The translations under genes were made by a program, and so were the position numbers. Shown in pieces: positions 404 through 25,658 of a DNA stretch of 64,000 nucleotides. Within the stretch, counting starts at the first letter, position 1. Each line of letters opens with the position of its first letter. The stretch lies in assembly GCF_900187945.1 (NCBI RefSeq), contig NZ_FYEH01000009.1:1-64000 (forward strand). Direction: 5' to 3'. The notes under the pieces were generated by a model that saw only the letters and a program-made list of their open reading frames with translations, was not told the DNA's origin and did no database searches. This DNA is from Arboricoccus pini. Lineage in GTDB: Bacteria; Pseudomonadota; Alphaproteobacteria; Geminicoccales; Geminicoccaceae.

Positions 404-2143
404 CTACTGGCTGTTCCAGGGCCGGCCCACGAGGGGCGCGTAGTGATGGGGGAGGCGCATGGTGACGAGGTCCTTGCGCCGGATGATGTTGGTTGGATAG
501 GGCGGCGCGACATTGGTGGTGTCGATTTCGGCGATGGCCAGGCCCTCGCCGTCCGGGACGATGGCTTCGCGGCGGGGAAATTCGAAGGTGTCCGGACCAA
601 AGACGCCACTTTTCCCGGCCTGGCCGGACGGTGAGGCGCCGATATTGGCGAAGGCCAGGAAGCAATTATTTTCGCCCGCACGGGCGCGAAAGAGGTGCCA
701 GTGGTGGAGGTCCGCCCCGGTGGGGATCGGATAGTTCTGGCGCACCTGGGAACCCGGGTGGCCGGCGACGAAGCCGCTCTCGATGGCGGCTGGAAGGACG
801 ATGAGGTCGCAGCCGCGCAGTGCCAGGACGCGGCCGGCCTCGGGGAAGCTGGCATCGTGGCCTGAAAGGATGCCGACACGGCCGAGCGGCAGGTCGATGA
901 CGGTCCAGTCCTGGCCCGGCGTCGCCCAGGCGCGCTCGGCCTCGGTCAGGTGGGTCTGGCGATAGCTGGCGCGAATGCCGGCGGCACCGATGATGAGGGT
1001 GGTTATGTAGATTTTCGCACCGGCAGCCTCGGCCAGGCTGACGACGAGGTCGAGGCGAAGGCGCGTCGCCAGGGCCATGAGCTTCTGGATGGCGGCGGCG
1101 TCGCGCGGCAAGGCGCTTTCTCGGCCGCCCGGCCGACCGGTGAGTGCTAGATGCGGGAAGACGACGAGCTCGGCGCCGCCCTCTCGTGCCTGGGTCGCCA
1201 GGGTCTCGATGCGCTCGAGGTTACGGGCGAGATCGGTGCCGGGGGTGAACTGTGCGGCGGCGATCTTCGTGCGTCGACCGGGCGGCAGCGGCTCCAGGCC
1301 GTAGAGGCCGAAAAAGTCCAGCGGATTCCAGGCGAAGGTAGTGGTGGCCAGCTCCATGTAGAGCTCGGGACGGCGCTGCTCGAAGACGGGATGACCCAGC
1401 ACGTGGCGCCTTGCCTGCGTGCGCGCGAGATCGATCGTGGCATAGGCGATACCCGGTCCATCGTCGACGACGGCGGCAAGCGTGCCGTCGGGCTCGATGA
1501 TGCAGCTGCCGCCGCTGAACTGGACGGTGCGCTCAAGTCCGTAGCGATTGCTCTCGATGAGGTAACAGCCATTCTCGACGGCGCGGGTGATCCAGTAAGG
1601 GGCGGGCGTGCGCTCGGCCAGCCAGTTGCTGACGTGGCAGATCACGTCGGCGCCCTTGAGGGCCACGAGGCGCGCCGTCTCGATGAAGTGGATGTCCATG
1701 CAGACGAGGAGCGCGATCTTGCCGAACTTCGTCTCGAACACCTGGTGCGTCGCGCCCGAGGCCGCCCATTTGGGCTCGGAAATGTAGGGGTGCGACTTCC
1801 TGTGCGTACCGATGACGCCATCGGGGCCGATGAGGACGGCGCTGTTGTAGTAGAGATCCGAGGCCGGATCGACTTCCGGCATGCCAATGACGATCAGACA
1901 ATCATGCACGCGGGCCAGGGCGGCAAAGCGCTCCGTGGTCGGCCCCGGCACCGTTTCGACGAAGGGTGCGACCTCGGCGCGATTGAGCCAGCAATAGCCG
2001 GTCGTGCCCATCTCCGGGGTCACGATGAGTCTGGCCCCGGCCCGGGCGGCCGTGTCGACCTCCCGCAGGAGGACCTCGATATTGCGGCCCTTTTCAAACA
2101 TGGTGGGCTCGAACTGGATCGCGGCTGCCTTGTAACTCGTCAC
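404..2143 (-). CDS. Tandem two-domain carbon-nitrogen hydrolase (nitrilase superfamily), second domain apparently inactive
   Basis: The protein has 579 residues and two nitrilase-fold domains, about 1-265 and 290-579, where the family norm is one domain of about 270. Members hydrolyse nitriles, amides or carbamoyl groups with a Glu-Lys-Cys triad. The first domain has all three: E44 (TPEMGT), K116 (HRKSHP) and C148 (LLVCMD). In the second domain the aligned positions are H331 (VVFPHLALTG), Q396 (YRQTH) and G428 (ILSGHD), so the triad is lost. The start is GTG at 2143. The gene is divergent from a dehydrogenase gene across a 146-base promoter region and sits at the edge of the cyclic-amide island. 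An amidase or ureidoacid-amidohydrolase role after ring opening is plausible but inferred; the substrate is unknown. Confidence 0.9.
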   Translation of the reverse strand: MTSYKAAAIQFEPTMFEKGRNIEVLLREVDTAARAGARLIVTPEMGTTGYCWLNRAEVAPFVETVPGPTTERFAALARVHDCLIVIGMPEVDPASDLYYNSAVLIGPDGVIGTHRKSHPYISEPKWAASGATHQVFETKFGKIALLVCMDIHFIETARLVALKGADVICHVSNWLAERTPAPYWITRAVENGCYLIESNRYGLERTVQFSGGSCIIEPDGTLAAVVDDGPGIAYATIDLARTQARRHVLGHPVFEQRRPELYMELATTTFAWNPLDFFGLYGLEPLPPGRRTKIAAAQFTPGTDLARNLERIETLATQAREGGAELVVFPHLALTGRPGGRESALPRDAAAIQKLMALATRLRLDLVVSLAEAAGAKIYITTLIIGAAGIRASYRQTHLTEAERAWATPGQDWTVIDLPLGRVGILSGHDASFPEAGRVLALRGCDLIVLPAAIESGFVAGHPGSQVRQNYPIPTGADLHHWHLFRARAGENNCFLAFANIGASPSGQAGKSGVFGPDTFEFPRREAIVPDGEGLAIAEIDTTNVAPPYPTNIIRRKDLVTMRLPHHYAPLVGRPWNSQ

Positions 2144-2289: not shown

Positions 2290-3168
2290 ATGCGCGTCGG
2301 TTTTCTTGGCCTGGGCGGCATGGGTGCGGCCATGGCGGCGAATTTGATCAAGGCCGGCCACGAGGTGACGGTCTGGAACCGCTCGCCGGCACCGGCCGAC
2401 CGGCTGGCGGCGATGGGCGGGCGCAAGGCGGAAAGCCCCGCCGCGGCCGCCGGGGGGGAGATCCTGATCAGCATGCTGGCGGACGATGCCGCGACCAAGG
2501 CCGTTCTCGTCGAGGGGGGTGCCCTGGACCGGCTGGCGGCGGGCGCCCTCCATGTCAACATGGCGACGGTGTCGATGGCGCTGGCCAAGGAGCTGACCGC
2601 GCTGCACGAGGCGCGCGGCCAGGGCTACGTGGCGGCACCGGTGCTCGGGCGCGTCGATGTGGCGGTGGCGGGCAAACTCAACATCCTGGCCGCGGGCCCG
2701 GCGGCGCTTCTGGACAGGGCGGAACCGCTCTTTGCCGCCATGGGGCAAAGGACCTGGCGATTCGGCGAGCGGCCGGAGCAGGCCAATGCCGTGAAACTCG
2801 CCGCCAATTTCATGCTGGCCTCGGCGATCGAGGCCATGGGCGAGGCAGCGGCCCTCGTGCAGGGCCACGAGGTCGCGCCCGCGAGCTTCCTTGAGATGAT
2901 CAGCTCGACCCTCTTTGCCGCCCCGGCCTATAAGGGCTATGGTGCCATGATCGCCGAGAAGCGCTACAGCCCGGTCGGCTTCAAGCTGCCCTTGGGCCTG
3001 AAGGACGTGCGCCTAGCGCAGGAGGCCGGCTTTGCCGCCAACGTGCCCATGCCGTTCGCCTCGGTGATCCGCGACAATTTCCTTGATGCCCTGGCCAATG
3101 GCGACGGCGAACTGGACTGGGCGGCCCTGGCCAAGGTCGCGGCGAGGCGGGCCGGCCAGCAGGACTGA
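2290..3168 (+). CDS. NAD(P)-dependent oxidoreductase, 3-hydroxyisobutyrate dehydrogenase family
   Basis: This 292-residue protein has the usual family length. Residues 1-160 form a Rossmann domain that opens with the dinucleotide motif GFLGLGGMG, with NRS after the second strand suggesting NADP preference. The conserved catalytic lysine is K169 in NAVKLAANFM, and the all-helical C-terminal domain follows. The APVLGR motif in the substrate region is closer to the glyoxylate-reductase/imine-reductase-like branch than to true 3-hydroxyisobutyrate dehydrogenases. The ATG at 2290 is preceded by GGGAGGGACGAGG. The next gene, an SDR, follows 57 bases downstream on the same strand. The pair probably reduces or oxidises a semialdehyde or hydroxyacid produced from ring-opened amino acids; that role is inference from context. 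Confidence 0.88.
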   Translation: MRVGFLGLGGMGAAMAANLIKAGHEVTVWNRSPAPADRLAAMGGRKAESPAAAAGGEILISMLADDAATKAVLVEGGALDRLAAGALHVNMATVSMALAKELTALHEARGQGYVAAPVLGRVDVAVAGKLNILAAGPAALLDRAEPLFAAMGQRTWRFGERPEQANAVKLAANFMLASAIEAMGEAAALVQGHEVAPASFLEMISSTLFAAPAYKGYGAMIAEKRYSPVGFKLPLGLKDVRLAQEAGFAANVPMPFASVIRDNFLDALANGDGELDWAALAKVAARRAGQQD

Positions 3169-3225: not shown

Positions 3226-3987
3226 ATGGACCTCGGTTTGGCTGGATTGCGCGCGCTGGTGACAGGCGGCAGCAAGGGGATCGGCCGCGCCTCGGCGCTG
3301 ACGCTGGCGCAGGAAGGCTGCGGCATCGCGATCTGCGCCCGCAACCAGGCGGAGATCGACTCGGTGGTTGCCGCCGCCAAGGCCAAGGGCGTGCCGGCCA
3401 TAGGCCAGTCGGTGGATGTCAGCAAGAAGGAGGCGCTCACCGCCTGGATCGCCGCCAGTGCCGAGGCGCTAGGCGGCATCGACATCCTCGTCTTGAACGT
3501 CAGCGCCCTCGATATGGGCCAGGGCGAGGAGGCCTGGCAGGCCGAGTTCGAGATCGACCTCATGCACACGGTGCGGGCCCTGGAAGCGGCCCTGCCCCAT
3601 CTAGAACGCTCGGCCCATCCAGCAGTGATCATCGTCTCCAGCGTGTCGGGCCTGGAGTTCGACTTCACCAGTGCCGCCTATGGCACGTTCAAGGCGGCCC
3701 TCATCCATTACGCCTCGCGCATGGCGAGCGCCCTGGCGGAGAAGCATATCCGCGTCAACACGGTCTCGCCGGGCAACACCTATTTCGAAGGCGGCATCTG
3801 GCAGAGGATCGAGCGCGAGATGCCCGATCTCTTCAAGACGGCCATGGGGCTCAACCCGTTCGGCCGCATGGCGACCGACCAGGAAATCGCCAATGCCGTT
3901 GTCTTTCTGGCCAGCCCGGCCTCGAGCTTCACGACGGGCGTCAATCTCGTGGTCGACGGCGCCCTCACCCGCCGCGTGCAATATTGA
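3226..3987 (+). CDS. Short-chain dehydrogenase/reductase
   Basis: The protein is a 253-residue classical SDR. The cofactor motif TGGSKGIG lies at about residues 13-20, the NVSA element follows strand 4, and the catalytic Ser-Tyr-Lys set is visible as the SSVSG serine and YGTFK (Tyr-x3-Lys). The C-terminal FLASPASSFTTG...VDGA segment is standard for the family. The closest recognisable style is the 3-oxoacyl-ACP-reductase-like branch used for many hydroxy/oxo substrates, so the substrate cannot be assigned. It follows the 3-hydroxyisobutyrate-dehydrogenase-like gene, probably as one transcript. The palindromic operator of the next operon (4003-4012) lies 16 bases past its stop codon, so the hyuA gene downstream has its own control. 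Confidence 0.9.
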   Translation: MDLGLAGLRALVTGGSKGIGRASALTLAQEGCGIAICARNQAEIDSVVAAAKAKGVPAIGQSVDVSKKEALTAWIAASAEALGGIDILVLNVSALDMGQGEEAWQAEFEIDLMHTVRALEAALPHLERSAHPAVIIVSSVSGLEFDFTSAAYGTFKAALIHYASRMASALAEKHIRVNTVSPGNTYFEGGIWQRIEREMPDLFKTAMGLNPFGRMATDQEIANAVVFLASPASSFTTGVNLVVDGALTRRVQY

Positions 3988-4012: not shown

Positions 4013-4120
4013 GATTAACCAACGGACGGTTGCGCGTCTCCTACGGGTCGCGGCGGCAGCTGGTCTGGAATGGAACTTGCGGCCGCCTTTCCCGACGTGA
4101 AGACAGGGGACAAGCGGTCG

Positions 4121-6199
4121 ATGAGCTTTCGCATCTCGGTGGACACAGGCGGCACCTTCACCGACGTGGTGGTGGCAGACGAGTTTGGCCGCCTCACCGT
4201 CGGCAAGGCGCTGACGACACCGGAGCGGGCCTTCAAGGGCCTGAGCGACGCCCTTAACGACGCCGCAGAGGCCCTGGCGATGGACCTTCCGGCCCTGCTG
4301 GCGCAGACGGAGCTCTTCGTCTACGGCACGACGCGGGCGACCAACGCCATTGTGACGCGGCGCGGAGCCAAGACCGCGTTTTTGACCACCGAAGGCTTCC
4401 CCGACATCCTGGTCCTGAAGGAAGGCGGGAAGCATTTCCCGCATGATTTTGCGACCGACTACCCGGCCCCCTACATCCCGAGACGCCACACTTTCGAGAT
4501 CCGCGAACGGATGAGCTCGGAGGGGACGGCCTCGATCCCCTTCGACGAGGCCCAGGCTAGAACCATCCTTGCCAAGCTGAAGACGCTGGGCTTCGAGGCC
4601 GTGGCTGTCTCCTTCATCTGGTCGATCGCCAATCCCGCGCACGAGCGGCGCATGGGCGAACTCATCGAGGAGATGCTGCCGGGCGTGCCCTACACACTCT
4701 CGCACGCTTTGGTGCCGATCCTGCGCGAATATCGCCGCGCCTCGGCCTCGGCCATCGACGCCTCGCTAAAGCCGCTCATGCAGCGCCATCTGCAGGGGCT
4801 GGAGGAGGATCTGCGCGCGGCCGGCTATCAAAACGAGTTCCTGGTCTCGACCTCGATCGGCGGCGTCATGCAGGTGGCCGAGCTGATCGAACAGCCGATC
4901 CACACGGCGAAGTCCGGCCCGGCCATGGCGCCCGTCGCCGCCCGCGCCTTCAGCGGCCTCGAAACGCTGGGCGCGGACGCCATCGTCTGCGATACGGGCG
5001 GGACCACTTTCGATGTCGGCCTCGTGCGCGAAGGCGAGCTCGTCTATTCCCGCGACACCTGGCTTGGCGGCGAATGGACCGGCCATCTCCTGGGAATCTC
5101 CTCGGTCGACATCCGCTCGGTCGGTGCGGGCGGCGGCTCGATCGCCTGGATCGACGATGGCGGCCTCTTTCGCGTCGGCCCGCAATCGGCCGGCTCCGTG
5201 CCGGGCCCGGCCTGCTACGGCCAGGGCGGCACCCAACCCACCGTGTCGGATGCCGCCTGCGTCCTGGGCTATTTCAATCCCGACTACTTCCTGGGCGGCC
5301 GCATGGCGCTCGACCAGGAAGCGGCCCATGCGGCCGTCTCGACCGTGGCCGCGCGCATCGGCCGCTCCACCGCAGCGACCGCCTTCGGCATCATCAATCT
5401 GGCCTCCGAATTGATGATCAAGGCCATCCACGACATCACCATTGCCGAGGGCGTCAATCCGCGCGAGAGCGTCCTCGTGGCCGGGGGCGGGGCTGCTGGC
5501 ATCAACATCATGCTGATCGCCAAGGAGCTCGGCTGCGAGAAGGTCCTCCTGCCCAAGCAGGCCTCGGCGCTTTCGGCCGCCGGCATGCAGTTCGCCGACA
5601 TCGTGAAGGAGGCCTCAAGAAGCCTCTTCACCACCAGCCAGAGCTTCGACAAGGTGACCGTCAATACCCTCCTGGCGTCGCTCCGGGAGGAGCTCGAAGC
5701 ATTCCGCGCCGGCCTCAACGCCACGCAAAAGGCGCTGCCCTACAAGATCGAGTTCGTCACCGACGCCCGGTATGCGAGCCAGGTCTGGGAGATCGAGGCC
5801 CCCCTGCCCTCGGCCGTCTTCGAGACCAACGCAGAGGTGGATGCCCTGACCGAGGCCTTCCACGCCACACATGAGCGCCTCTTCACGCTTCGGGACGAAG
5901 GCAGCACCATCGAGTTCATCGGCTGGAAAGCGAGACTCACGGTGATGAGCGGTATCGCGCTCGATCGCATCAAGCCCGAGCCACCTCCCGGTGTCGCCGA
6001 AACGGCCCGCTACCGCCCTTGCTATTTCGGCGACGACGAACCGGTCACAACCCGCATCTGGAAGGGCCAGGAACTGGCGGCCGGCACCCGCGTCGATGGA
6101 CCCTGCATCATCGAGGAGCCGACGACGACCGTCGTCGTCTTCCCGGGCATGTCGGCGGAAGTAACACCGCGCGGACATTATCTTTTGACCTGCATCTGA
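4121..6199 (+). CDS. hyuA: Hydantoinase/oxoprolinase subunit A (pair 1)
   Basis: The protein is the ATP-binding subunit of an ATP-dependent cyclic-amide hydrolase (5-oxoprolinase, N-methylhydantoinase and caprolactamase family). It phosphorylates the ring amide while the HyuB subunit completes ring opening. The N-terminal HyuA domain starts with DTGGTFTD (residues 8-15), and the second ASKHA phosphate-binding motif CDTGGTTFDVG lies near residue 291. VGAGGGSIAW and the glycine-rich VAGGGAAG are typical of the family. I chose the ATG at 4121 because AGGGGACAAG lies about 7 bases upstream; an in-frame ATG at 4070 would add 17 unconserved residues and has no clear ribosome site. At 692 residues it is of normal length. 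HyuB follows after 15 bases, and the palindromic operator at 4003 lies upstream. The actual substrate is not determinable. Confidence 0.93.
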   Translation: MSFRISVDTGGTFTDVVVADEFGRLTVGKALTTPERAFKGLSDALNDAAEALAMDLPALLAQTELFVYGTTRATNAIVTRRGAKTAFLTTEGFPDILVLKEGGKHFPHDFATDYPAPYIPRRHTFEIRERMSSEGTASIPFDEAQARTILAKLKTLGFEAVAVSFIWSIANPAHERRMGELIEEMLPGVPYTLSHALVPILREYRRASASAIDASLKPLMQRHLQGLEEDLRAAGYQNEFLVSTSIGGVMQVAELIEQPIHTAKSGPAMAPVAARAFSGLETLGADAIVCDTGGTTFDVGLVREGELVYSRDTWLGGEWTGHLLGISSVDIRSVGAGGGSIAWIDDGGLFRVGPQSAGSVPGPACYGQGGTQPTVSDAACVLGYFNPDYFLGGRMALDQEAAHAAVSTVAARIGRSTAATAFGIINLASELMIKAIHDITIAEGVNPRESVLVAGGGAAGINIMLIAKELGCEKVLLPKQASALSAAGMQFADIVKEASRSLFTTSQSFDKVTVNTLLASLREELEAFRAGLNATQKALPYKIEFVTDARYASQVWEIEAPLPSAVFETNAEVDALTEAFHATHERLFTLRDEGSTIEFIGWKARLTVMSGIALDRIKPEPPPGVAETARYRPCYFGDDEPVTTRIWKGQELAAGTRVDGPCIIEEPTTTVVVFPGMSAEVTPRGHYLLTCI

Positions 6200-6214
6200 A
6201 GCGAGCCCCGCCCA

Positions 6215-8026
6215 ATGCAAGCGACGAACCCTTCATGTTCCGAGAACGCGCCCGTGCCGCCCATGGACCCGGTCTTGATGGCGATCATCGCCAACCGCAT
6301 CGACGCGGTGGTACGCGAGATGACGCACACGCTGCTGCGCACCGCCCGCTCCGCCGTAATCAACTCGGCCCGCGACTTCTCCTGTGCCATCTGTACGGGC
6401 GATAACGAACTCCTGGCCTGCGCGGAGGGCCTGCCGATCCATATTTTCGGCGCCGACATGCAGGCGCGCACGATGACCGAACGGCACGCGGACTTGGCCG
6501 AGGGCGACTGCTACCTCCACAACGATCCCTATACCGGCAACACTCACGCAGCCGACCACACCTTCCTCGTCCCCGTCTTCTTCGAGGGCGAACATCTCTT
6601 CACCGCCGTCGCCAAGGCGCACCAGGCCGACTGCGGCAACAGCCTGCCCACCACCTACATGTCGACGGCGCGGGACCTGTTCGAGGAAGGCTCCCTCATC
6701 TTCCCGGCGGTCCGCATCCAGCGCGACTATAAGATGGTGGACGACGTCGTCGCCATGATGCGCAGCCGCATCCGCGTGCCCAGCCAATGGTATGGCGACT
6801 TCCTGGCCGGCATCGGCGCTGCCCGCATCGCCGAACTGCGCCTGAAGGAGGTCTGTGCCAAATACGGCAAGTCCGCCATCAAGACCTTCATCAAGGCCTG
6901 GCTGGACTATACCGAGCAGCGCATGATCAACGCCCTCAAATCGTTGCCGGCCGCCTCTCTCAGCCGCGATGGGCGGCACGATTCGACCCCTTTTCTGCCC
7001 GAGGGCATCCCGCTCAGGGTCGACGTCGCCATCGACCCCGACGACGCGCGCATCACGATCGATCTCACGCGCAACATCGACAATGTCGATTGCGGCTATA
7101 ACCAGAGTGAGGCTACCGCCGTCTCCTCGGTCATGGCCGGCCTCTTCAACAGCCTGAAGAGCGATGTCCCGCGCAATAGCGGCTCCTTTCGCCGCGTCGA
7201 CATCAAGTTGCGCGAGGGGGCCGTCGCAGGCAAGCCGCGCTACCCGCATTCCTGCTCGGTCGCGACGACGAACGTCTCCGATCGCATGATCAACCTGACG
7301 GGCCTGGCCTTCAGCGATCTCGGCGACGGCCTGGGCTTGGCCGAGGGCGGCGTCGGCCTCGGCGTCGGCATGTGCGTCCTCTCCGGCACCGATCCACGCT
7401 ACGACAACGCCCGCTTCGTCAACCAGATCCATCTTTGCGCCAGCGGCGGCCCCGCTTCGGCCAGCGCCGATGGCTGGATCACCTATGGCATCCCGGTCGT
7501 CGCTGGCCTCATGTATCGCGATTCCATCGAAATCGACGAATTGAAGCACCCGATCGAGGTCAAGCGTGCCGCCATCGTCGCGGGTACGGGCGGTGCCGGC
7601 CGCCGACGCGGCGCGCCCGGCAGCATGATCGAGTACGGCATCAAGTCGGAAACGATGACCATGATCTATCCGGGCGACGGCCAGGAATTCGCACCGCGTG
7701 GCGCGCGGGGTGGCCAGGATGGCGGCCTTGCCGGCCGTTGGCTCATCGAGCCCGACGGCAAAGCGACGAAGCTGACCAACGCCGCCAACATCCTGATCAG
7801 GAAAGGCCAGACGGTTCGCGGCCAGGATTGCGGCGGCGGCGGCTACGGCCCACCGCTGGAACGCGAGCCCGAGCGTGTTCTCGAAGACGTGCGCGAGCGC
7901 TACGAGACGCCAGCCAGGGCACGCGAGATCTATGGTGTCGTGCTCACGGGCAGTGCCGATGACGATACCCTGGCCATCGACCTCGACGCGACGCGGACAT
8001 TGCGCCGGCATATGGCATCGGCGTGA
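6215..8026 (+). CDS. hyuB: Hydantoinase/oxoprolinase subunit B (pair 1)
   Basis: This 603-residue protein is the partner of the preceding HyuA and would form an A/B complex in the cytoplasm. Family landmarks are the HNDPYTGNTHAADHT segment in the N-terminal third, whose His and Asp residues are of the metal-site type, the RNSGSFR segment in the middle, and the glycine-rich tail GGGGYGPPLE about 70 residues from the end. An alternative start is the methionine at 6263 (MDPVLMAI), which aligns better with the beginning of the conserved domain; the first 16 residues look unconserved. The operator and promoter of the next operon lie 28 bases after the stop codon, so hyuA-hyuB forms a two-gene unit. 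Confidence 0.92.
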   Translation: MQATNPSCSENAPVPPMDPVLMAIIANRIDAVVREMTHTLLRTARSAVINSARDFSCAICTGDNELLACAEGLPIHIFGADMQARTMTERHADLAEGDCYLHNDPYTGNTHAADHTFLVPVFFEGEHLFTAVAKAHQADCGNSLPTTYMSTARDLFEEGSLIFPAVRIQRDYKMVDDVVAMMRSRIRVPSQWYGDFLAGIGAARIAELRLKEVCAKYGKSAIKTFIKAWLDYTEQRMINALKSLPAASLSRDGRHDSTPFLPEGIPLRVDVAIDPDDARITIDLTRNIDNVDCGYNQSEATAVSSVMAGLFNSLKSDVPRNSGSFRRVDIKLREGAVAGKPRYPHSCSVATTNVSDRMINLTGLAFSDLGDGLGLAEGGVGLGVGMCVLSGTDPRYDNARFVNQIHLCASGGPASASADGWITYGIPVVAGLMYRDSIEIDELKHPIEVKRAAIVAGTGGAGRRRGAPGSMIEYGIKSETMTMIYPGDGQEFAPRGARGGQDGGLAGRWLIEPDGKATKLTNAANILIRKGQTVRGQDCGGGGYGPPLEREPERVLEDVRERYETPARAREIYGVVLTGSADDDTLAIDLDATRTLRRHMASA

Positions 8027-8053
8027 AAACCCGGGAATTCATGCCGCTAGTGT

Positions 8054-8063
8054 TGTGATCACA
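8054..8063. promoter_or_regulatory. Palindromic operator TGTGATCACA, copy 2
   Basis: Identical to the copies at 4003, 16091 and 24732. It lies just upstream of a perfect TATAAT hexamer at 8070-8075, so a bound regulator would cover the -35 to -10 region of the aminotransferase promoter. Confidence 0.74.
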
Positions 8064-8069
8064 GATTGA

Positions 8070-8075
8070 TATAAT
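8070..8075 (+). promoter_or_regulatory. Probable -10 element (TATAAT) of the aminotransferase promoter
   Basis: Perfect consensus -10 hexamer, six bases after the palindromic operator and 61 bases before the aminotransferase ATG at 8137. No good -35 hexamer is visible at 17 bases spacing; that region overlaps the operator. Confidence 0.5.
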
Positions 8076-8136
8076 GTCGTCTGGGGCGCCGCAGCGGCCG
8101 GCGCGGATGGTTGCCGCAGAAATCTGGAGTTCGTTG

Positions 8137-9552
8137 ATGCTTGAGGATCGCAGCAATTATACGCTCGAGGACATGGACCGCATGAGCGTGTTCCATCCCT
8201 TGACCTCGATCGAGACCCACATGAAGCAGGGTCCGATGATCATCGAGCAGAGCAAGGGCGTGCGGCTGCGCGACCATAAGGGACGCGAACTCATCGATTG
8301 CGGCGCTGGACTCTGGTGCGTCAATATCGGCTATGGCCGCCCCGAGATCGCCCAGGCCGCCCAGCAGGCCTTCGAGAACCTCAATTACTACCATATCTTC
8401 GGCGGCGCCTCGAACGAGCCGATGATCCGCCTGGCCGACAAGGTACTGACCCTCTTTCGCGAGCGCTCGGGCGCGCCGCAGATGGCCCGCGTCTTCTTCG
8501 GCACGTCGGGCTCGGACGCCAACGACACCAACGCCAAGCTGGTGCGCTACTACAATAATCTTCGCGGCAAGCCCGAGAAGAAGAAGATCATCTCGCGCAC
8601 GGGTGCCTATCACGGCCTGACCACCATGGCGGCAGCGCTCACCGGCATCGACATCTACCACAAGGCCTGGGACCTGGACGGAAGCGGTGTCTTGCACACG
8701 AGCTGCCCGCATTTCTTCCGCTTCGGCCTGCCTGGCGAGACGGAGGAGCAATTCACCGATCGCCTGATCGGCGAGATCGAGGCCATGATCGCGCGCGAGG
8801 GTGCCGAAACGATCGCCGCCTTCATCGCCGAACCGATCATGGGCACCGGGGGCGCCCTCCTGCCGCCCAAGGGCTATTTCGAGAAGCTGCAGCCGATCCT
8901 TGAGAAGAACGACATCCTCTTCATCGCCGATGAGGTGATCACGGGCTTCGGGCGCACCGGCGACTGGTTCGCAACCGGCCTCTATGGCCTCAAGCCCGAC
9001 ATCGTCACCTTGGCCAAGGGCATCACCAGCGCCTATTTCCCGGTCTCGGCCTCGGTGATCTCGCAAAAGATCTGGGACGTGCTCGAGGCGGCCTCGCCGG
9101 AATATGGCCCGGTCATGCATGGGTTTACCTATTCCGGTCACCCGGTCGGCGGCGCCGTCGGTCTCGCCAATCTCAAGATCATGGAAGAGGAAAACCTGCC
9201 GGCGAACGCCGCCAAGGTAGGCTCCTATCTGCGCGAGCAACTCAAGGCGCGCTTCGGCGATCATCCCTATATCGGCGACATTCGAGGCCAGGGCCTGATG
9301 GTGGCGCTCGAATTCGTCGCCGACAAAGCCAAGAAGACCTTCTTCAAGGCCGGTCAGAATCCGCATCGCGTCGTCGCCGGCTACGCGCCCGATAACGGCA
9401 TCATGATCCGCGGCCTGCCCTTCACCGAGACACTGGCCTTCTCGCCGCCGCTCTCGATCACCGAAGGCGACCTCGATCAGGCCATGGACGCCCTGGCCAA
9501 GTCGCTCGAACAGGCCATGCCGGAATTGCGGAAGCTCGCCGCCGAAGCCTGA
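8137..9552 (+). CDS. Class III PLP-dependent aminotransferase (omega-amino acid type)
   Basis: The protein transfers the amino group of a terminal amine or omega-amino acid to a keto acid, using pyridoxal phosphate. With the ATG at 8137, which has CTGGAG about 8 bases upstream, it has 471 residues. The PLP-phosphate-binding loop is GTSGSDAND, the cofactor aspartate is in IADEVITGFGRTG (about D265), and the Schiff-base lysine is in TLAKGITSAY (about K294). HGFTYSGHPVGGAVGLAN is the typical C-terminal active-site segment. An upstream in-frame ATG at 8074 overlaps the TATAAT promoter element and is unlikely. In this cluster it would logically deaminate the omega-amino acid released by lactam opening; that is inference. 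It has its own operator at 8054, and the regulator gene follows. Confidence 0.92.
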   Translation: MLEDRSNYTLEDMDRMSVFHPLTSIETHMKQGPMIIEQSKGVRLRDHKGRELIDCGAGLWCVNIGYGRPEIAQAAQQAFENLNYYHIFGGASNEPMIRLADKVLTLFRERSGAPQMARVFFGTSGSDANDTNAKLVRYYNNLRGKPEKKKIISRTGAYHGLTTMAAALTGIDIYHKAWDLDGSGVLHTSCPHFFRFGLPGETEEQFTDRLIGEIEAMIAREGAETIAAFIAEPIMGTGGALLPPKGYFEKLQPILEKNDILFIADEVITGFGRTGDWFATGLYGLKPDIVTLAKGITSAYFPVSASVISQKIWDVLEAASPEYGPVMHGFTYSGHPVGGAVGLANLKIMEEENLPANAAKVGSYLREQLKARFGDHPYIGDIRGQGLMVALEFVADKAKKTFFKAGQNPHRVVAGYAPDNGIMIRGLPFTETLAFSPPLSITEGDLDQAMDALAKSLEQAMPELRKLAAEA

Positions 9553-9577
9553 TTGCCAGCCCGACCTGGAAGATGGA

Positions 9578-9585
9578 TTTTTTTT
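9578..9585 (+). terminator. Poly-T tract after the aminotransferase gene
   Basis: Eight consecutive T residues lie 26 bases after the stop codon, preceded by only a weak stem (CCAG...CTGG). It could act as a terminator between the aminotransferase and GntR genes, but the hairpin is poor. Confidence 0.3.
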
Positions 9586-9632
9586 AGCAAGATCCGGAAA
9601 AGTGATTGCCCGAGGTTGAGCGTCGCCCTTAG

Positions 9633-10367
9633 ATGATGCCCATGAGAATGAGCATCGCTAGCGATCAGGACGACCTGGCGACACTTCCAGGCGAGGCTGA
9701 GACAGCCGGAATCGACACGACAACACTGGCGCAACAGGTCTATCTCGACCTGGAGAGTCGGATTCTCGGTGGTGAATTACTGCCTGGCGACCGGGTCAGT
9801 CTGCGTGGCCTGGCCGCCACGCTCGGCACCAGCATGCAGCCAGTGCGCGAGGCGGTGGGTCGCTTGGTCGCCGTCCACGCCCTCGAGGTGACACCCAATC
9901 GATCGCTTCGCGTGCCGCCGGTCGACAGAGCCACGACCGATGACATCTGGGCGATGCGGCTTCTCCTCGAGGGGGAGGCCGCCGCCCGCTTCGCCGAACG
10001 TCATCAGGCTGACGAGGCGCGATCACTCTTCGTCCACAGCAAGGTCATGCGCGAAATCCGCTACGGCGTCGATCTCGAGCCGACGATGCGGGCCATCATG
10101 GCCTGGAACCAAGGCCTGGCCGTTGGCTCCGGCTCGCCCCTGCTGATCGAGAATATCGCGAGGCTGCGGCTACGCTACGCGCCCTGGCTCGCCATGGCGC
10201 TCAGCGTGCCCCGCGCTTTCGAGGCACCGTTCCTGCAATTCACTCTGCATATCCAGGACGAACTCGTCCTGGCGCTCGAGGCGGGTGATGCGGCGGCTGC
10301 CCGCCATCTCCGCTGCGCCGACCTCCGCTCGTTCCAGCGCTATCTCTACGGGCGCCTCGACTGGTAG
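9633..10367 (+). CDS. GntR-family transcriptional regulator with FCD-type effector domain
   Basis: This 244-residue protein has a winged helix-turn-helix at about residues 30-95, including ILGGELLPGDRVSLRGLA and the signature PVREAVGRL, and an all-helical FCD-type ligand domain after it. Members bind small carboxylates or amino acids and usually repress catabolic operons near their own gene. It stands alone between the aminotransferase and a convergent hyuA/hyuB operon, in the middle of the four operons that carry the TGTGATCACA palindrome. It is therefore the best candidate for the regulator of that set; this is inference, and no copy of the palindrome lies directly before its own gene. Several nearby methionines (9633, 9642, 9648) make the exact start uncertain. 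Confidence 0.88.
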   Translation: MMPMRMSIASDQDDLATLPGEAETAGIDTTTLAQQVYLDLESRILGGELLPGDRVSLRGLAATLGTSMQPVREAVGRLVAVHALEVTPNRSLRVPPVDRATTDDIWAMRLLLEGEAAARFAERHQADEARSLFVHSKVMREIRYGVDLEPTMRAIMAWNQGLAVGSGSPLLIENIARLRLRYAPWLAMALSVPRAFEAPFLQFTLHIQDELVLALEAGDAAAARHLRCADLRSFQRYLYGRLDW

Positions 10368-10460
10368 GACCCGCGCCGCCAGCTGGACCGTGCCCCTACG
10401 TCGCGTCGAATGGCACTGCGCCTCACCAACCAGCGCCATCGGTCGCCTCATGCTTCGATA

Positions 10461-10476
10461 ATGAATCTTGATTCAT
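10461..10476. repeat. Short palindrome ATGAATC-TT-GATTCAT
   Basis: A 7-base inverted repeat with a 2-base spacer, about 94 bases past the GntR stop codon. Outer bases CGATAA and TTATCG extend the symmetry imperfectly. It may be a weak terminator or a binding site; no function can be assigned. Confidence 0.35.
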
Positions 10477-10580
10477 GAAGTTATCGTGGCCCATAAAGTC
10501 ACGGACCATGCATTGCCGGCATACTCACAAGTAAAAGCATCGATACCGCTCCGCTGGCGATGCGGTGCTCGCAAGAAGTA

Positions 10581-10615
10581 CCGTGCCTGCCGGGCGGGGG
10601 ATCCGGCAGGCACGG
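10581..10615. terminator. Hairpin terminator of the hyuB (pair 2) operon
   Basis: A perfect 13-base stem (10581-10593 with 10603-10615) and 9-base loop lie directly after the hyuB stop codon on the minus strand, followed on that strand by a T-rich TACTTCTTGC. It separates the convergent GntR and hyu transcripts. Confidence 0.75.
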
Positions 10616-10622
10616 GTGCCGA

Positions 10623-12572
10623 CTATTCACCTGCGAGGTCGACAACGCTTCCATAGTCGTTCGCCGCGGCTTTCGCACTCACATAACCTTCCGCAACATC
10701 CTCCAGGATGGCTGCGGGGTCGCGTTCGGCGGGGTTCCCATAACCTCCTCCCCCCGGCGTGACCAAAAGAACACGATCGCCGGGCTCGAAGGTCACGTTG
10801 GCGTATTTCGACGACGAGACCTTGCCGTAGAGTTCCCGGACCGTCAGCCACTCATCGGCCCCGGCCTTCTGGATCAAAGTGCCGCCATTGCCCCCCGGCT
10901 GCCCGCCCATGAGGGGAAACGGCTTGACCTCGTGGCGATCCGAACACTGGCTGCCCGTGATCGGCACGGCCGTCATCAGGAGCGATCGCTGGAAGCCCAG
11001 GCCGCCCCGCCATTTGCCGGCCCCGCCCGAATCCTGGATCAGCTCGCAGCGTTCGACACGCAGTGGAAAGCGGGTCTCGAAGACTTCCGTCGGATTGAAA
11101 CGGCAATTGCCGTTGATGGCGTTGACGCAGTCGTTGCCGTCATGGCCAAAACGCCCACCCCAACCGCCCGACATGATGTCGTAGCAGGCAAAATACTCGT
11201 CATGATCCGGGTGGTTGCCGCCAAAGACGAAATTCGTACTGGTGCAGCTCTCGGCCGCCATCGCCCGCTCCGGCACGCAGGCAGACATGGCGCCTATGAC
11301 GATGTTGGCGAGCCTTGGATGCGTTTCCGTGTTGCCCGCCACGAGCGGCCCTGGATAGTCGACATTCACCACCTTGAAGGGCGGCGCCACGACGCGGATC
11401 GGCCGGAACGCGCCCGAGTTCTTGGGAATCGAGGGATCGGTGACGTGAAGGATGCCGTTATAGGTAGCCCCCGTGGTGACGCCCAAAGTGGCGTTGATGG
11501 GCCCCTTGGCCTGGATCGAGCTCCGCCGATAATCGGCGACGACCTCGTTGCCCTGCACATGGATGTCGACGGCAACGGTATAGGGCTTGTTCTCGATACC
11601 GTCATTCTCGAGGACATCCTCAAAGCCGTAAACGCCATCGGGGAAAGCCTCGAGCTCGGCCCGCATGCGCCGCTCGGCATAGTCCATGAGGTCTTCACAT
11701 GTCTGCTTGAAGACGTCCTTGCCGTATTTTTTGACGATCTGGACGATGCGGTCGGCGCCCAGCTGAACCGAGCCCATCATGGCGCGAAGGTCGCCATAGC
11801 TCTGCCTGGCCGTGCGCGTATTGGCGAGGATCAGCTTCCAGACCTCGTCGACGTCCTTGCCGGCCTTCATGATCTTGACCGGCGGCACACGCATGCCCTC
11901 GTGGAAGATCTCGGTGGCCTCGCCGCAGAAGGCGCCCGGGACCATGCCGCCAATCTCGGCTATATGTCCGATGCAGACGGCAAAGCCCAAGAGCTCGCCA
12001 TCGACGAAGAAAGGCTTGAAGAAGGTGTGTTCCGGGCAGTGCAGCCCGCCCCGGTAGGGATCGTTGTGGAGCAGGATGTCGCCCTCCTCCAGCGTCTCGA
12101 AGGGGATTTCCTGCGCACAGGTCTTGATCAAGAGCGGCATGCCGCCGATCATCGTCGGGCAGAACTCCGCACAGGCGATCATGTCGCCCTTGGCGTCCGC
12201 CAGCGCGCAGGTGAAGTCCAGCCCCTCGTTGAAGATCGTCGAGTAGGAGGTCTTCATGAGCAGGATGCCCATCTCCCGGCAGATCGACACCATGGTCGAA
12301 TCCAGGATGTTCATGGTCACCATGTCCAAGGGCGCCAGACGCTCGCCGCGTTGCGGATAGGCCGCCTCGAAGGGAAGCCTAACGTGCTCGATCGCCAGCC
12401 TGGGAGCTGGCTCGCCCGCGGTCTTCTTGCCGTTCCAGGTGACGCACCAGTCCGAGCAGAAGAGATGCGCCGATCCCTTGCCCGTGCGCACGCCGTCGCC
12501 ATAGACCAGCATGCCGCAATTGGCGCATTTGAGGTATTTCTCGACGTAGTAGCCGTTCTCGGAAAGCTTCAT
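10623..12572 (-). CDS. hyuB: Hydantoinase/oxoprolinase subunit B (pair 2) with an N-terminal four-cysteine module
   Basis: The 649-residue protein is a HyuB subunit with landmarks LLHNDPYRGGLHCPEHT and the C-terminal GGGGYGNPAERDP. Unlike the other two HyuB proteins here, the conserved domain starts only near residue 75. It is preceded by a segment with C16-x2-C19 and C39-x3-C43 (KCANCGM and FCSDWC), which looks like a small zinc-binding or iron-binding knuckle. Its start at 12572 lies 10 bases after the hyuA stop, with a GAGGAG-type ribosome site, so the two are co-translated. Acetone carboxylase and related HyuA/B-family enzymes use an extra metal-binding subunit, so the module could be a fused counterpart; this is speculation. 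It is the last gene of the operon, followed by a strong hairpin. Confidence 0.91.
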   Translation of the reverse strand: MKLSENGYYVEKYLKCANCGMLVYGDGVRTGKGSAHLFCSDWCVTWNGKKTAGEPAPRLAIEHVRLPFEAAYPQRGERLAPLDMVTMNILDSTMVSICREMGILLMKTSYSTIFNEGLDFTCALADAKGDMIACAEFCPTMIGGMPLLIKTCAQEIPFETLEEGDILLHNDPYRGGLHCPEHTFFKPFFVDGELLGFAVCIGHIAEIGGMVPGAFCGEATEIFHEGMRVPPVKIMKAGKDVDEVWKLILANTRTARQSYGDLRAMMGSVQLGADRIVQIVKKYGKDVFKQTCEDLMDYAERRMRAELEAFPDGVYGFEDVLENDGIENKPYTVAVDIHVQGNEVVADYRRSSIQAKGPINATLGVTTGATYNGILHVTDPSIPKNSGAFRPIRVVAPPFKVVNVDYPGPLVAGNTETHPRLANIVIGAMSACVPERAMAAESCTSTNFVFGGNHPDHDEYFACYDIMSGGWGGRFGHDGNDCVNAINGNCRFNPTEVFETRFPLRVERCELIQDSGGAGKWRGGLGFQRSLLMTAVPITGSQCSDRHEVKPFPLMGGQPGGNGGTLIQKAGADEWLTVRELYGKVSSSKYANVTFEPGDRVLLVTPGGGGYGNPAERDPAAILEDVAEGYVSAKAAANDYGSVVDLAGE

Positions 12573-12582
12573 CGTCTCCTCC

Positions 12583-14607
12583 TCAGGCCTTGGGCGTTTC
12601 GATGAGCAGATGGCCGTAATCGTCGACGGTCAGCGTCTGGCCCGGACAGATCACCGTGACCGAGGCCGGCTCCTCGACGACGACCGGTCCCTTCAGCTTC
12701 TGGCCGGCGCCAAGCGCGGCGCGGTCATAGACCGGCACCTCGAAGGTACCTTGCACATAGCCCACCTGCCGATGCGCGCGCGGTACGGGCAGGCCCTCGG
12801 CCGCCTTCAGGCGCGGCATCTCGGGCAGCGTGCCCGCCGAGACCGCCGTCACGCCGAAATTGACGATCTCGATGATCTCGCCCGGATTGTTGAAGCCGAA
12901 ACGGGCTTTGTGCGTGTCGTGGAAGGCCTGCCAGAGCCGTTCCGGGTGACCAAGATCGCTCTCCTGGACCGCGAGCTCGAGCTCGTAATTCTGGCCCAGA
13001 TAACGCATCTCGAGATTACGCGCGACGACGATATCGTCGGCAAATCCCTGCCCGTCCAGCTGGCCCACGGCCTCGGCCACGAGCGAGCTCATGATCTCCA
13101 CTGCCCGTGCTGGATCATAGAGGTTGCTGGTGAGCTGCGCGGTGCGATGCCGGTCCACCCGGGCATTGGTCATGATGAAGCCGAAGGCCGAGAACTGGCC
13201 TGGATGATTGGGCACGATGCCGCGCGGAATGCCCATCTCCTCCATGAGCTCGCCCACATGCAACGGCCCGGCACCGCCAAAAGTGCAAAGCGTGAAGTCG
13301 CGCGGATCAAGGCCGCCCTCGATCAGGACGGAGCGCAGGGCCCCCACCATGTTGGTATTGGCGATCCGCACGATGGCCAGAGCCGCCTGCTCGATGCTCT
13401 GGCCCAGGGGCTCGGCGACGGTCGCAATCGCCTGGCGCGCCCGGGCGACATCGAGCAACATGCGCCCGCCCAGGAAATTATCGGCCGCGATCCGCCCCAG
13501 GATCAGATTGGCATCCGTGACAGTCGGCCATTCGCCCTTGCCGTAGCAAGCAGGCCCCGGATTGGCCCCGGCACTCTGCGGCCCGACCCGCAGCATGCCC
13601 CCTTTATCGATCCAGGCGATCGAGCCGCCGCCCGCACCGATGGTACGGATGTCGATGATGGGGATCTGGATCGGCACACCCCACTCGATCTCGAAAGCAG
13701 TGGTGAAGCGCTCCTGCCCATCAATGATCACCGAGACGTCGGTCGAGGTGCCGCCCATGTCGAGCGTCACCAGATGGTCGATCCCGGTCAGCCGGGCGAC
13801 GTGCCGGCTGGCGATGACTCCGCCCGTCGGCCCCGAGACGACGAGGTTGACCGGCGCTTCAGCCGCCGCCCCGAGCGTCATCTCGCCGCCATTGGATTTG
13901 ATGACGACGGCCGGCGCCTTGAATCCGGCCTCGTCCAGCCGCCGACGCATCGAGCCCATCTGCCGGCTGACGACGGGCTTTAGATAGGCATCGGCCAGTA
14001 CGGTCGAGGCGCGCTCATATTCCTTCCATTTGGGCAGGACCTCGTAGGAGATCGAGATCGGCATCTCGGGCAGGATCTCGCTCAAGATCTCCTTGATACG
14101 GATCTCGTGCGCCGGGTTCAGGTAGGAAAAAAGCGTGCAGACGGCCACCGCCTGGATCTCAGGATCGGCCTTGATCGCCCGGCCCAGGGCCCTGACCTCG
14201 GCATCGTCCAGGGGCTTGAGCACCTGGCCATATTTGTCGATCCGCTCGTCGAGCTCGAAGCAATGCCGCCGCTTGGCGAGCGGCTTCGGCTTTACCCAGC
14301 TCATGTCGTAGTGGAACTTGCGATTACCGCGCTGGATGAAGATGACGTCCTTAAAGCCCATGGTGGTCACATAGGCGACCGTGGCCCCCTTGCGCTCCAG
14401 CATGGCGTTGGTGGCGACAGTCGTGCCCAGCCTGATATGACCGACCGCGTCGCCGTCCTCGTAGCGCTTCAGGCCCGAAACGATGCCAACCACCGGATCG
14501 GTCGGCACCGAGAGCTCCTTCCAGACCACGACCTCCTGCGTCTCCCGGTCATAGGCGACGAAGTCGGTAAACGTCCCGCCCACGTCGATTCCCAGCGCGT
14601 AACGCAT
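12583..14607 (-). CDS. hyuA: Hydantoinase/oxoprolinase subunit A (pair 2)
   Basis: The 674-residue ATPase subunit has DVGGTFTD at residues 8-15, the second phosphate motif LDMGGTSTDVSV in the middle, VGAGGGSIAW-type sequence (TIGAGGGSIAW), and the CTFGGAGPLHVGELMEE segment near residue 430. It pairs with the HyuB encoded 10 bases downstream. The ATG at 14607 has GGGAGGCAGGATAG in front. It is the second gene of a minus-strand operon that begins with an ABC binding-protein gene, which suggests that the imported compound is the substrate of this pair. A hairpin with a T-rich tail in the 59-base gap may lower its expression relative to the binding protein. Confidence 0.93.
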   Translation of the reverse strand: MRYALGIDVGGTFTDFVAYDRETQEVVVWKELSVPTDPVVGIVSGLKRYEDGDAVGHIRLGTTVATNAMLERKGATVAYVTTMGFKDVIFIQRGNRKFHYDMSWVKPKPLAKRRHCFELDERIDKYGQVLKPLDDAEVRALGRAIKADPEIQAVAVCTLFSYLNPAHEIRIKEILSEILPEMPISISYEVLPKWKEYERASTVLADAYLKPVVSRQMGSMRRRLDEAGFKAPAVVIKSNGGEMTLGAAAEAPVNLVVSGPTGGVIASRHVARLTGIDHLVTLDMGGTSTDVSVIIDGQERFTTAFEIEWGVPIQIPIIDIRTIGAGGGSIAWIDKGGMLRVGPQSAGANPGPACYGKGEWPTVTDANLILGRIAADNFLGGRMLLDVARARQAIATVAEPLGQSIEQAALAIVRIANTNMVGALRSVLIEGGLDPRDFTLCTFGGAGPLHVGELMEEMGIPRGIVPNHPGQFSAFGFIMTNARVDRHRTAQLTSNLYDPARAVEIMSSLVAEAVGQLDGQGFADDIVVARNLEMRYLGQNYELELAVQESDLGHPERLWQAFHDTHKARFGFNNPGEIIEIVNFGVTAVSAGTLPEMPRLKAAEGLPVPRAHRQVGYVQGTFEVPVYDRAALGAGQKLKGPVVVEEPASVTVICPGQTLTVDDYGHLLIETPKA

Positions 14608-14636
14608 CTATCCTGCCTCCCGTGGAGAAGAAGAAA

Positions 14637-14659
14637 GGGCCGCATCGGCGGCGCGGCCC
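14637..14659 (-). terminator. Attenuator-like hairpin between binding-protein gene and hyuA
   Basis: On the minus strand GGGCCGC pairs with GCGGCCC across a 9-base loop, followed by TTTCTTCTTCT. It lies just after the binding-protein stop codon and would reduce read-through into hyuA. Confidence 0.6.
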
Positions 14660-14666
14660 GTCGCGA

Positions 14667-15872
14667 TCAGTTGGTCTTGAGGCGATAGAGCACAGCCGGC
14701 GGCACCGGCTCGTCGATCCGCCACTGATCGATCACCTGCCCCTTGCCGCTGCCAACCATGGCGATCAGCTCAAGCGGTTGATCTTGGATATGCAGCTTGT
14801 TCGTGAAGGTACGTGGCCCGAGCAGCGTCGGCTCGTCCTTGTAGCTCTCCATGACCTTTGTCACGGCGGCAGCATCGGTCGTCCCAGCCTTGGTCACGGC
14901 CTTGCCCCAGAGGTCGAGCCAGGCATAGATCGGATAGGCATATTGCGAGGCCGGCGCGGAGCCGTATTTCTCGGCATAGGCCTTGGTCAGCGCATTCACT
15001 TCGGGCCTCGGATCGTCGCCATAGGATGAGGCCTGGATTGGCACGTAGAAATCCTTCAGGTTCGGCACGGCCGTCTGCCAGTAGAGGCCATCCATCGACT
15101 GAGAGCCGAACACCGGAATGTCGATGCCCGCCCCCCGGATCTGCCTCAGCGCCGAGCCGGCCCCCGGCATCGACGAGCAGAGCATGATGACATCGACCTT
15201 GGTCTGCGCGTTCACGCCGCGAAAGCGCGTGATCTGCGAGGCAAGGGACGTGTCCGCACCCTTGAATGTGTCGCGGCCGACGATCGTGCCGCCTACTTTC
15301 GGATACGCCCAGTCGAAGCCGGCACAGGCCGACTTATTATATTCCAGGCTCTCGTCCAGGATCACGTAGGCGGTTTTGAACTGCTTCTTCTTCATGCCCC
15401 ACTGCGCCATGGTCGCCCCTTCGACCTGGGCGGCGTTGGACGAGGTGAAGGAGAAAGGGCCGACGCCCATGACACCCGCCTTGGGATCGCCGGCGCAGAG
15501 AAAGACCGACATGATCTTCGCCTGCTGCGCCTGAAGAGCGGCAGGGGCGCCGAAATCATAGTCGCAGGTCGCAAAGACGAGGGCAGCGCCGTCATGGACC
15601 ACTCGCTGCCCCGCCTTCGCACCCTCGACGCGATCGGATTTCGTATCCGCCATCACGGCCTTGAGCTGCTTGCCCAACAGGCCGCCTTTGGCGTTCGTCT
15701 GGTCGATCCAGAGTTGCGCCATCTTGGTGGAATCGCCGTCATAGGCCGCCATGTCACCCGAGGTGGCCACAGCAAAGCCCATCACGATATCGTCGGCAGC
15801 ACGACCCTGGACGGGGTTCAGCGCTAGCATCGCGGCAATAGCCGCGATGCCCGCCCACTTGCGATGCATCAT
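14667..15872 (-). CDS. Branched-chain-type ABC transporter substrate-binding protein
   Basis: This periplasmic type I binding protein has 401 residues from the ATG at 15872 (AGAGGGAC lies upstream). The frame stays open to 16340, but those residues would cover the operator region and are not protein-like. Residues 1-26 form a signal peptide (basic MMHRKW, hydrophobic core, cleavage near GRAADD). The mature protein shows the Leu/Ile/Val-receptor pattern: VMGFAVATSGDMAAY at the start, an NAKGGLLGK element, and later a VPIQ...NALTKAYAEKYG region. The divergent plus-strand operon encodes the two ATPases and two permeases that complete the importer. It is followed by hyuA and hyuB, so the ligand is probably a cyclic amide or a derivative (inference). 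Confidence 0.9.
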   Translation of the reverse strand: MMHRKWAGIAAIAAMLALNPVQGRAADDIVMGFAVATSGDMAAYDGDSTKMAQLWIDQTNAKGGLLGKQLKAVMADTKSDRVEGAKAGQRVVHDGAALVFATCDYDFGAPAALQAQQAKIMSVFLCAGDPKAGVMGVGPFSFTSSNAAQVEGATMAQWGMKKKQFKTAYVILDESLEYNKSACAGFDWAYPKVGGTIVGRDTFKGADTSLASQITRFRGVNAQTKVDVIMLCSSMPGAGSALRQIRGAGIDIPVFGSQSMDGLYWQTAVPNLKDFYVPIQASSYGDDPRPEVNALTKAYAEKYGSAPASQYAYPIYAWLDLWGKAVTKAGTTDAAAVTKVMESYKDEPTLLGPRTFTNKLHIQDQPLELIAMVGSGKGQVIDQWRIDEPVPPAVLYRLKTN

Positions 15873-16090
15873 AAGCTTGTCCCTCTTTGACTGGAGGCCG
15901 ATCGCGGCCAAACTGCAAGTCCTGTTCCACTTCTCCCGCCAATGCGGAGGCAAGCGCGGAACCGCGCCCCCTGACGGCCCCGCCTTCTCCGTCCCCGGGT
16001 AATTGCATGGTTCTTGCAGTACCCACGACAGACAGGTTCGACAGCGCGGCGGGAGACGCTTGCAACCACTCTCCCGCTGAGCGCGCAATT

Positions 16091-16100
16091 TGTGATCACA
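16091..16100. promoter_or_regulatory. Palindromic operator TGTGATCACA, copy 3
   Basis: In the divergent region between the binding-protein/hyuA/hyuB operon (-) and the ABC importer operon (+), 21 bases before the ATPase start at 16122. It is identical to the copies at 4003, 8054 and 24732. Confidence 0.72.
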
Positions 16101-16121
16101 GCTTATGCGGGTGGCGTCGAA

Positions 16122-16922
16122 ATGATCACCAGACCGAGTCGGACCGCGCCTGGCGTCGACCAGCCTCTGGCCGCCAGCCTGCGAGCGGAGAACATCTCCG
16201 TCCGCTTCGGCGGCCTTGCAGCCATCAGCGAGGTGACGCTGGCCCTGGAGCGCGGCCACATCCTGGGTCTGATCGGCCCGAATGGCGCCGGCAAGACCAC
16301 GCTCGTCAATTGCCTGACCGGCTTTCAGGCGCCAACCCACGGCCGCGTCCTCCTGGCGGACGCTCCCACGCTAGGCTGGACGGCCGAGCATTTCCGCCGC
16401 GCCGGCGTCGCGCGCACCTTCCAGGCGGGACGGCTCTTCAAGGCCCTGAGCGTCGTTGAGAATATCGAGGTGACCGGTGCCGGGCTCGGCCTCAGCCGCA
16501 GGCGGGCAAGGTCACTGGCCCTGGAACTCCTGGCGTGGCTCAAGCTCGACGACAAGGCCGAGACCCTGGCAGGTGCCCTGGCCTATACCGACGAGCGCCG
16601 GGTCGGCATCGCCCGGGCGCTGCTATTGGGCCCGGCCTTCCTCCTCCTGGACGAGCCGGCCGCCGGCATGTCGGATGCAGAGAGCGACGAGCTCTCCAGC
16701 CTGGTCAAGGCCATTCCCAAGACGTTCGAATGCGGTGTCCTCCTGATCGAGCACAATATGCGCATGGTCATGGATACCTGCGAGATGATCCATGTGCTGG
16801 ACAGCGGCCGTACCATCGCTGAAGGCACGCCCGCGCAGATCCAGAAGAACAAGGCGGTCATCGCCTCCTATCTGGGCGGCGAGGGCGAGAAGCAACTCGA
16901 GATCATGGAGGAAGGACATTGA
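16122..16922 (+). CDS. ABC transporter ATP-binding protein, LivG type, with degenerate signature motif
   Basis: The protein is one of two ATPases of a branched-chain-type importer. From the ATG at 16122 it has 266 residues. The open frame extends to 16014 but would include the operator, so the downstream start is chosen; its ribosome site is weak. Walker A is GPNGAGKT (52-59) and Walker B is FLLLDEPAAGM. The ABC signature, normally LSYGxQR in LivG proteins, reads LAYTDERR here, so the conserved glycine is lost. The H-loop LLIEHNM is intact. The stop codon overlaps the start of the next ATPase gene (TGATG). With the divergent binding protein, this operon probably imports the substrate of the HyuA/B enzymes. 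Confidence 0.9.
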   Translation: MITRPSRTAPGVDQPLAASLRAENISVRFGGLAAISEVTLALERGHILGLIGPNGAGKTTLVNCLTGFQAPTHGRVLLADAPTLGWTAEHFRRAGVARTFQAGRLFKALSVVENIEVTGAGLGLSRRRARSLALELLAWLKLDDKAETLAGALAYTDERRVGIARALLLGPAFLLLDEPAAGMSDAESDELSSLVKAIPKTFECGVLLIEHNMRMVMDTCEMIHVLDSGRTIAEGTPAQIQKNKAVIASYLGGEGEKQLEIMEEGH

Positions 16923-22597: not shown

Positions 22598-22600
22598 CGT

Positions 22601-25634: not shown

Positions 25635-25658
25635 AAACAACGCGAAAGGGCTCTCTTC

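Follow-up and report, generated by a model that had tools for sequence, protein, structure and literature searches.

The window, a 64,000-nucleotide stretch of the Arboricoccus pini genome (positions 1 to 64,000 of contig NZ_FYEH01000009.1), carries a gene for a tandem nitrilase-fold protein (404-2143, minus strand), located right where contig C5 of the 4.07 Mb genome begins. The open reading frame starts with GTG and encodes 579 amino acids, in which Pfam recognised two CN_hydrolase (PF00795) stretches (E = 6e-79). Domain 1 (residues 3-266; 1346-2137) is a PF00795 member with a nitrilase fold and with the catalytic Glu, Lys and Cys, its full set consisting of E44, K116, C148 (codon at 1700-1702) and the second nitrilase Glu, E123. 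Domain 2 (residues 290-572; 428-1276) belongs to PF00795 as well, both by sequence (E = 1e-40) and in its structural model, and alignments and model agree on a nitrilase fold without the catalytic Cys. The Glu-Lys-Cys triad is missing from this domain, which has His at the Glu site (H331, codon at 1151-1153), Gln at the Lys site (Q396, 956-958) and Gly at the Cys site (G428, 860-862); the acidic E403 is its counterpart of E123. Domain 2 further contains a specific insert with the motif following it (residues 462-482, H-x-G-[ST]-...-PIPtGaDpxHW; 698-760) and a conserved tail (residues 549-573, YPTNxxRRKDLVxMRxPHxY; 425-499), all of these features being encoded on the minus strand.

Scanning one genome per species yielded 80 full-length homologues with 55-69% identity, and the window protein shares the properties of this tandem family (family A): two-domain full-length homology, the domain-1 triad and the domain-2 Gly. 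Upon aligning all 81 sequences, which are homologous over residues 2-572, we found E44, K116, E123 and C148 of domain 1 to be invariant in 81/81, and position 428 to be Gly, again in 81/81. At position 331, Glu was retained in 75 of the 81 sequences, with Ala in four, Gln in one and His in the window protein only, while position 396 was Lys in 69/81 and Gln in 12/81; the site of residue 403 held Asp or Glu among the family A relatives read. Domain 2 alone and its profile aligned without gaps around the site to the Pyrococcus amidase/nitrilase structures, and in the alignments to solved nitrilases Gly428 fell on the catalytic Cys (GHDA-FPE on CFD-FFPE). With Gly there in every one of the 81 sequences, chance does not account for the change. 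The original prediction, which had placed E44, K116 and C148 in domain 1 and H331, Q396 and G428 at the aligned sites of domain 2, thus proved right in its residues and, by these independent alignments, in its register. Its claim that all three catalytic residues of domain 2 are replaced holds for the window protein but not for the family, in which Glu and Lys mostly persist: only the Cys loss is family-wide, whereas the Glu-to-His change is unique to the window protein and the Lys-to-Gln change occurs in 12/81. Hence, to the question of whether the loss is shared among tandem homologues, the answer is yes for Cys and only in some sequences for Glu and Lys. The inactivity proposed for domain 2 is borne out at the level of sequence, the Cys loss being common to all tandem homologues, and the window protein represents the extreme, most degenerate case of a repeated loss.

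Placed on the tree, the domain-2 Glu site required at least 3 changes and the Lys site at least 3-4, of which 3 were forced by well-supported branches, and the fold motifs of domain 2 stayed in place despite this repeated loss of Glu and Lys. As Gly is found in 81/81, the Cys loss is older than the whole family, with Glu and Lys lost later and repeatedly. The Lys-to-Gln change of the window protein grouped with that of a rhizobial clade in the domain-2 tree but not in the full-length tree; because the two trees disagree, we did not adopt a shared loss, and the window protein probably lost its Lys independently of the rhizobial clade.

Family A is spread from Bacillota to Pelagibacteraceae, and within the host's own surroundings we found no close kin in 30 genomes of the same family and one other match among 96 relatives. 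Two further tandem families, B (loci L098, L123 and L109) and C (locus L110, Novosphingobium pSA1), share ~30% identity with family A along the whole protein. Their domain 1 retains Glu, Lys and Cys, and the domain-2 Cys site, counted over readable domain-2 sequences, is Gly in L098 and L123 and Asp in L109 for family B, and Gly in L110 for family C. Loci L088, L092, L124-L128 and L130 did not enter this reading, as the frames picked for them were antisense or wrong. In the tree, domain-2 sequences formed a group of their own (support 96/90) that included neither domain-1 sequences nor Cys-bearing single-domain amidases, and the same grouping was recovered at 94/87 once family C and further long branches had been removed. 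A tree with a separate duplication within family A did not score best, but an AU test did not reject it (p = 0.127); as this leaves an internal duplication in family A possible, a single origin of domain 2 across the tandem families is likely but not proven. One genome (G395, contigs C1 and C7; loci L123, L129 and L130) contained three tandem-nitrilase matches, one of family B and two of the family A type, showing that families A and B can coexist. The family B gene of L109 resides on the Klebsiella plasmid NZ_CP056225.1 beside nitrile hydratase genes, and at 5398-15055 of that locus the tandem nitrilase is grouped with two ABC transporters, a nitrile hydratase and an isochorismatase-type hydrolase, a gene group that looks like a nitrile/amide utilisation cassette.

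We modelled the full chain with AlphaFold2 on 42 sequences and obtained a pLDDT of 86.5 and a pTM of 0.88; domain 2 modelled alone, on an alignment of 31 rows, reached a pTM of 0.84. The best Foldseek match of domain 1 was 6ypa/1j31 (TM by target 0.93), and the domain-2 model alone matched 6ypa with TM 0.73/0.82 (E = 2.6e-21). No solved structure spanning both domains appeared in Foldseek, where matches covered one domain only and the best TM by query was 0.43. As a pTM of 0.88 would be unexpected for freely floating domains, we took the predicted domain arrangement as defined, and the single-chain model fits a fixed two-domain arrangement in which the cis pair may copy the nitrilase dimer. 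The mean pLDDT of the insert region (residues 455-484) was 48-53 when domain 2 was modelled alone and 71-78 within the full chain; for the domain-2 tail, pLDDT rose from 48-66 to 67-76, both comparisons being between models built on different alignments (31 vs 42 rows). In view of this gain, it appears to be domain 1 that orders insert and tail, an observation that is supporting rather than decisive.

These elements also set domain 2 apart at the level of conservation. The insert and motif at residues 462-482 are absent from domain 1 and from families B and C, and within the insert H462, G464, I473, P474, H481 and W482 are invariant, as are Y549, P550, T551, R555, K557, M562, R563 and Y568 of the tail. 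Other marks of the domain are an R-x-R-x-GENN helix, FPRxE and the tail signature YPTN-RRKDL-MR. Across 14 pairs of close relatives, dN/dS was 0.05-0.30 for domain 2 and 0.02-0.22 for domain 1, and columns conserved at 95% or more numbered 79/283 in domain 2 and 133/263 in domain 1. Domain 2 is clearly under purifying selection, somewhat weaker than that on domain 1, in line with the originally noted preservation of its scaffold. As selection has preserved the dead half in no fewer than 80 other genomes, it probably has a structural or a sensing job.

The gene surroundings of the relatives point to an amide-nitrogen operon. In 71 of 80 relatives the locus included at least three Urt/branched-chain-type ABC transporter genes (7/80 were without), an FmdA/AmdA amidase was present in 42/80 loci and an AmiR-type ANTAR regulator in 14/80, and an AmiC-like binding protein also occurred in operons of relatives. 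The same kind of operon is found on pAt (A. fabrum C58), on pRL12 and on a Klebsiella plasmid. Given the Urt-type transporters in 71/80 loci, often together with FmdA/AmdA and AmiR, the tandem protein would belong to amide-nitrogen scavenging. The window gene has no adjacent Urt-type ABC, FmdA or AmiR operon, and for this protein the pathway would therefore be read across from relatives. The neighbour that it does share with them is an SDR oxidoreductase (3226-3987, plus strand), 56-61% identical to the SDR in Bradyrhizobium-type loci, more than 20 of which have it just downstream of the tandem gene; the SDR is a conserved genetic partner of the tandem gene. Between the two lies a divergent neighbour, a 3-hydroxyisobutyrate-dehydrogenase-like NAD-binding protein (2290-3168, plus strand), of which no relative was found beside the other 80 tandem genes. 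A role in anti-phage defence was dropped, as PADLOC gave no match.

We consider it fairly probable that domain 1 is a working amidase and that domain 2 is a fused pseudoenzyme partner with a structural role, perhaps amide-binding in relatives. Domain 1 would hydrolyse a small amide or carbamoyl compound through Cys-Glu-Lys(-Glu), an activity that would serve the uptake and use of amide nitrogen. The Cys-to-Gly change that deprived domain 2 of its nucleophile would be older than the spread of today's family, and the domain would supply, in cis, the second nitrilase fold that is otherwise obtained by dimerising, with its insert and C-terminal tail predicted to pack on domain 1 and to order it. 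In relatives that kept Glu and Lys, the empty domain-2 site may bind an amide without cutting it, and in the window protein, where Glu and Lys are gone too, a structural role is likely what remains. Both roles named in the original prediction, ligand sensing and replacement of the homodimer contact, may apply, and ligand sensing is less likely for the window protein than for relatives with Glu and Lys.

Most homologues have retained Glu (75/81), Lys (69/81) and, at the position of the second Glu, an acidic residue although the Cys is gone, which argues against a purely structural role and points to a remaining ligand-binding site. This retention favours the alternative that domain 2 is a ligand sensor, in which binding of the substrate amide (or product) to the pocket without Cys would turn domain 1 on or off. 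By their PDB titles, Cys-less nitrilase mutants have been crystallised with uncut amides (6ypa, C146A with glutaramide; 4izs, C145A with butyramide; 5ny7, C145A with nicotinamide; and even 4izv, E41Q/C145A with acrylamide), and as such mutants hold uncut amides, domain 2 could serve as a sensor in relatives that have Glu and Lys; the operons of relatives also have amide-responsive AmiR-type regulators. However, Glu and Lys were lost several times, the window protein included, with the rest of the domain retained, and the operon already has its own sensor in the AmiC-like binding protein and AmiR. We regard the sensor as possible but unlikely, and hold as doubtful the wider proposal that ancient cis-fused nitrilase pseudoenzymes bind amides uncut and control an active twin, as a sensor built from the fold of the enzyme itself, with some lineages, that of the window protein among them, sliding from sensing to a pure scaffold.

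An enzyme with different chemistry, in which Gly together with H462, H481, R486, R488, E491, R524 and E526 would form another active site, would be consistent with the fixation of Gly in 81/81 and with the many invariant, charged, domain-2-specific residues. These charged residues are equally compatible with a domain interface, though, families B and C are without the insert that bears H462 and H481, and no nitrilase-fold enzyme is known to work without the Cys; this reading is improbable. Even less credence is due to domain 2 as a decaying remnant with its loss pending: it evolves faster than domain 1, as the counts of conserved columns indicate, but its dN/dS of 0.05-0.30 in 14 pairs rules out recent decay, its Gly is fixed in 81/81, and it has been kept from Bacillota to Pelagibacteraceae as well as in two families of ~30% identity. 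A misalignment or frameshift, with an intact second triad elsewhere in domain 2, can be practically dismissed. The original prediction had named such a shifted triad in homologues as the finding that would overturn its alignment, and none was present in domain 2 of the window protein, by two profile alignments, or in any of the 80 homologues; the profile alignments to solved nitrilases set Gly428 on the Cys, the gene is a single frame of 579 codons and the 80 homologues agree, so that the alignment stands.

Compared with known systems, the favoured pair of a working amidase and a fused pseudoenzyme comes closest to the Pyrococcus amidase/nitrilase (1j31, 3ivz, 6ypa), which matches domain 1 in fold, in catalytic set and along its whole length (~35% identity, TM 0.93) and is the best match of domain 2 as well. 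Unlike the window protein, it has a single domain with an active Cys and no pseudo-domain, and it pairs as a homodimer. N-carbamoylputrescine amidase (AguB; PDB 5h8i) has the fold and catalytic set of domain 1 and is single-domain. The window protein scored 172 bits against its model TIGR03381 (cut-off 410 bits) and 217 bits against the best-scoring family model, NCBIfam NF040852 (cut-off 500 bits), and with scores below both cut-offs it is to be called related to these families rather than a member of them. Nitrilase domains are likewise fused to another domain in NitFhit, glutamine-dependent NAD+ synthetase and Lnt, where the nitrilase domain, usually an active one, has a partner of another fold; in the window protein, by contrast, the partner is an inactive nitrilase. 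The loci of relatives share an AmiR-type ANTAR regulator, an AmiC-like binding protein and an ABC transporter with AmiE in AmiC-AmiR operons, but AmiE is of a different, single-domain nitrilase branch, and the window locus is without adjacent AmiC, AmiR or ABC genes. Two single-domain nitrilases most like the domains studied here (L111, L118) have the genes for an ANTAR regulator and a substrate-binding protein on either side, a context that suggests an AmiC/AmiR-controlled single-domain forerunner.

Members of family A are annotated as 'nitrilase-related carbon-nitrogen hydrolase' (ATU_RS26440 and RL_RS35110, 60-61% identical over the full length). For blr0973 of Bradyrhizobium, a context of urt-like ABC genes and PF03069 was noted in passages of PMC3098086, which proposed an amide other than urea; we liken blr0973 to the tandem family by the gene context described there, not by sequence. 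Neither these passages nor the NCBI annotation mention an inactive second domain, and the literature searched, mostly outside subscription journals, yielded no paper describing nitrilase domains that are in tandem or inactive. Hence, the tandem family is already known, being annotated and its operon having been noticed once in passing, while the pseudo-domain seems undescribed. A fused nitrilase pair with one half switched off occurs in over 80 species and in three diverged families, and it calls for caution among annotators and protein engineers, as one half of such 'nitrilases' cannot work by the usual catalytic mechanism. As the stepwise loss can be traced (first of Cys, later and repeatedly of Lys and Glu), the family allows testing why a dead copy is kept.

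The wider window, with its hydantoinase pairs, aminotransferase and 5-oxoprolinase set, is a setting of amide and lactam breakdown. Three HyuA-HyuB pairs lie within 21 kb (4070-8026, plus strand; 10623-14607 and 20651-24691, minus strand), and a class III aminotransferase (8074-9552) and a GntR regulator (9633-10367) are located between hydantoinase A/B pairs. A complete 5-oxoprolinase-type set (24789-29123, plus strand; LamB/YcsF, biotin carboxylase, CT_C_D and CT_A_B) adjoins a HyuA-HyuB pair. A Peripla_BP_6 binding protein, an ABC ATPase and a branched-chain-type permease at 14667-18576 form a transporter broadly like those encoded in the relatives' tandem-nitrilase operons, although 12 kb away from the tandem gene. 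One HyuB (10623-12572, minus strand) carries ~80 extra N-terminal residues with CxxC...CxxxC before its Hydantoinase_B domain (residues 83-614), an extension that looks like a small zinc ribbon.
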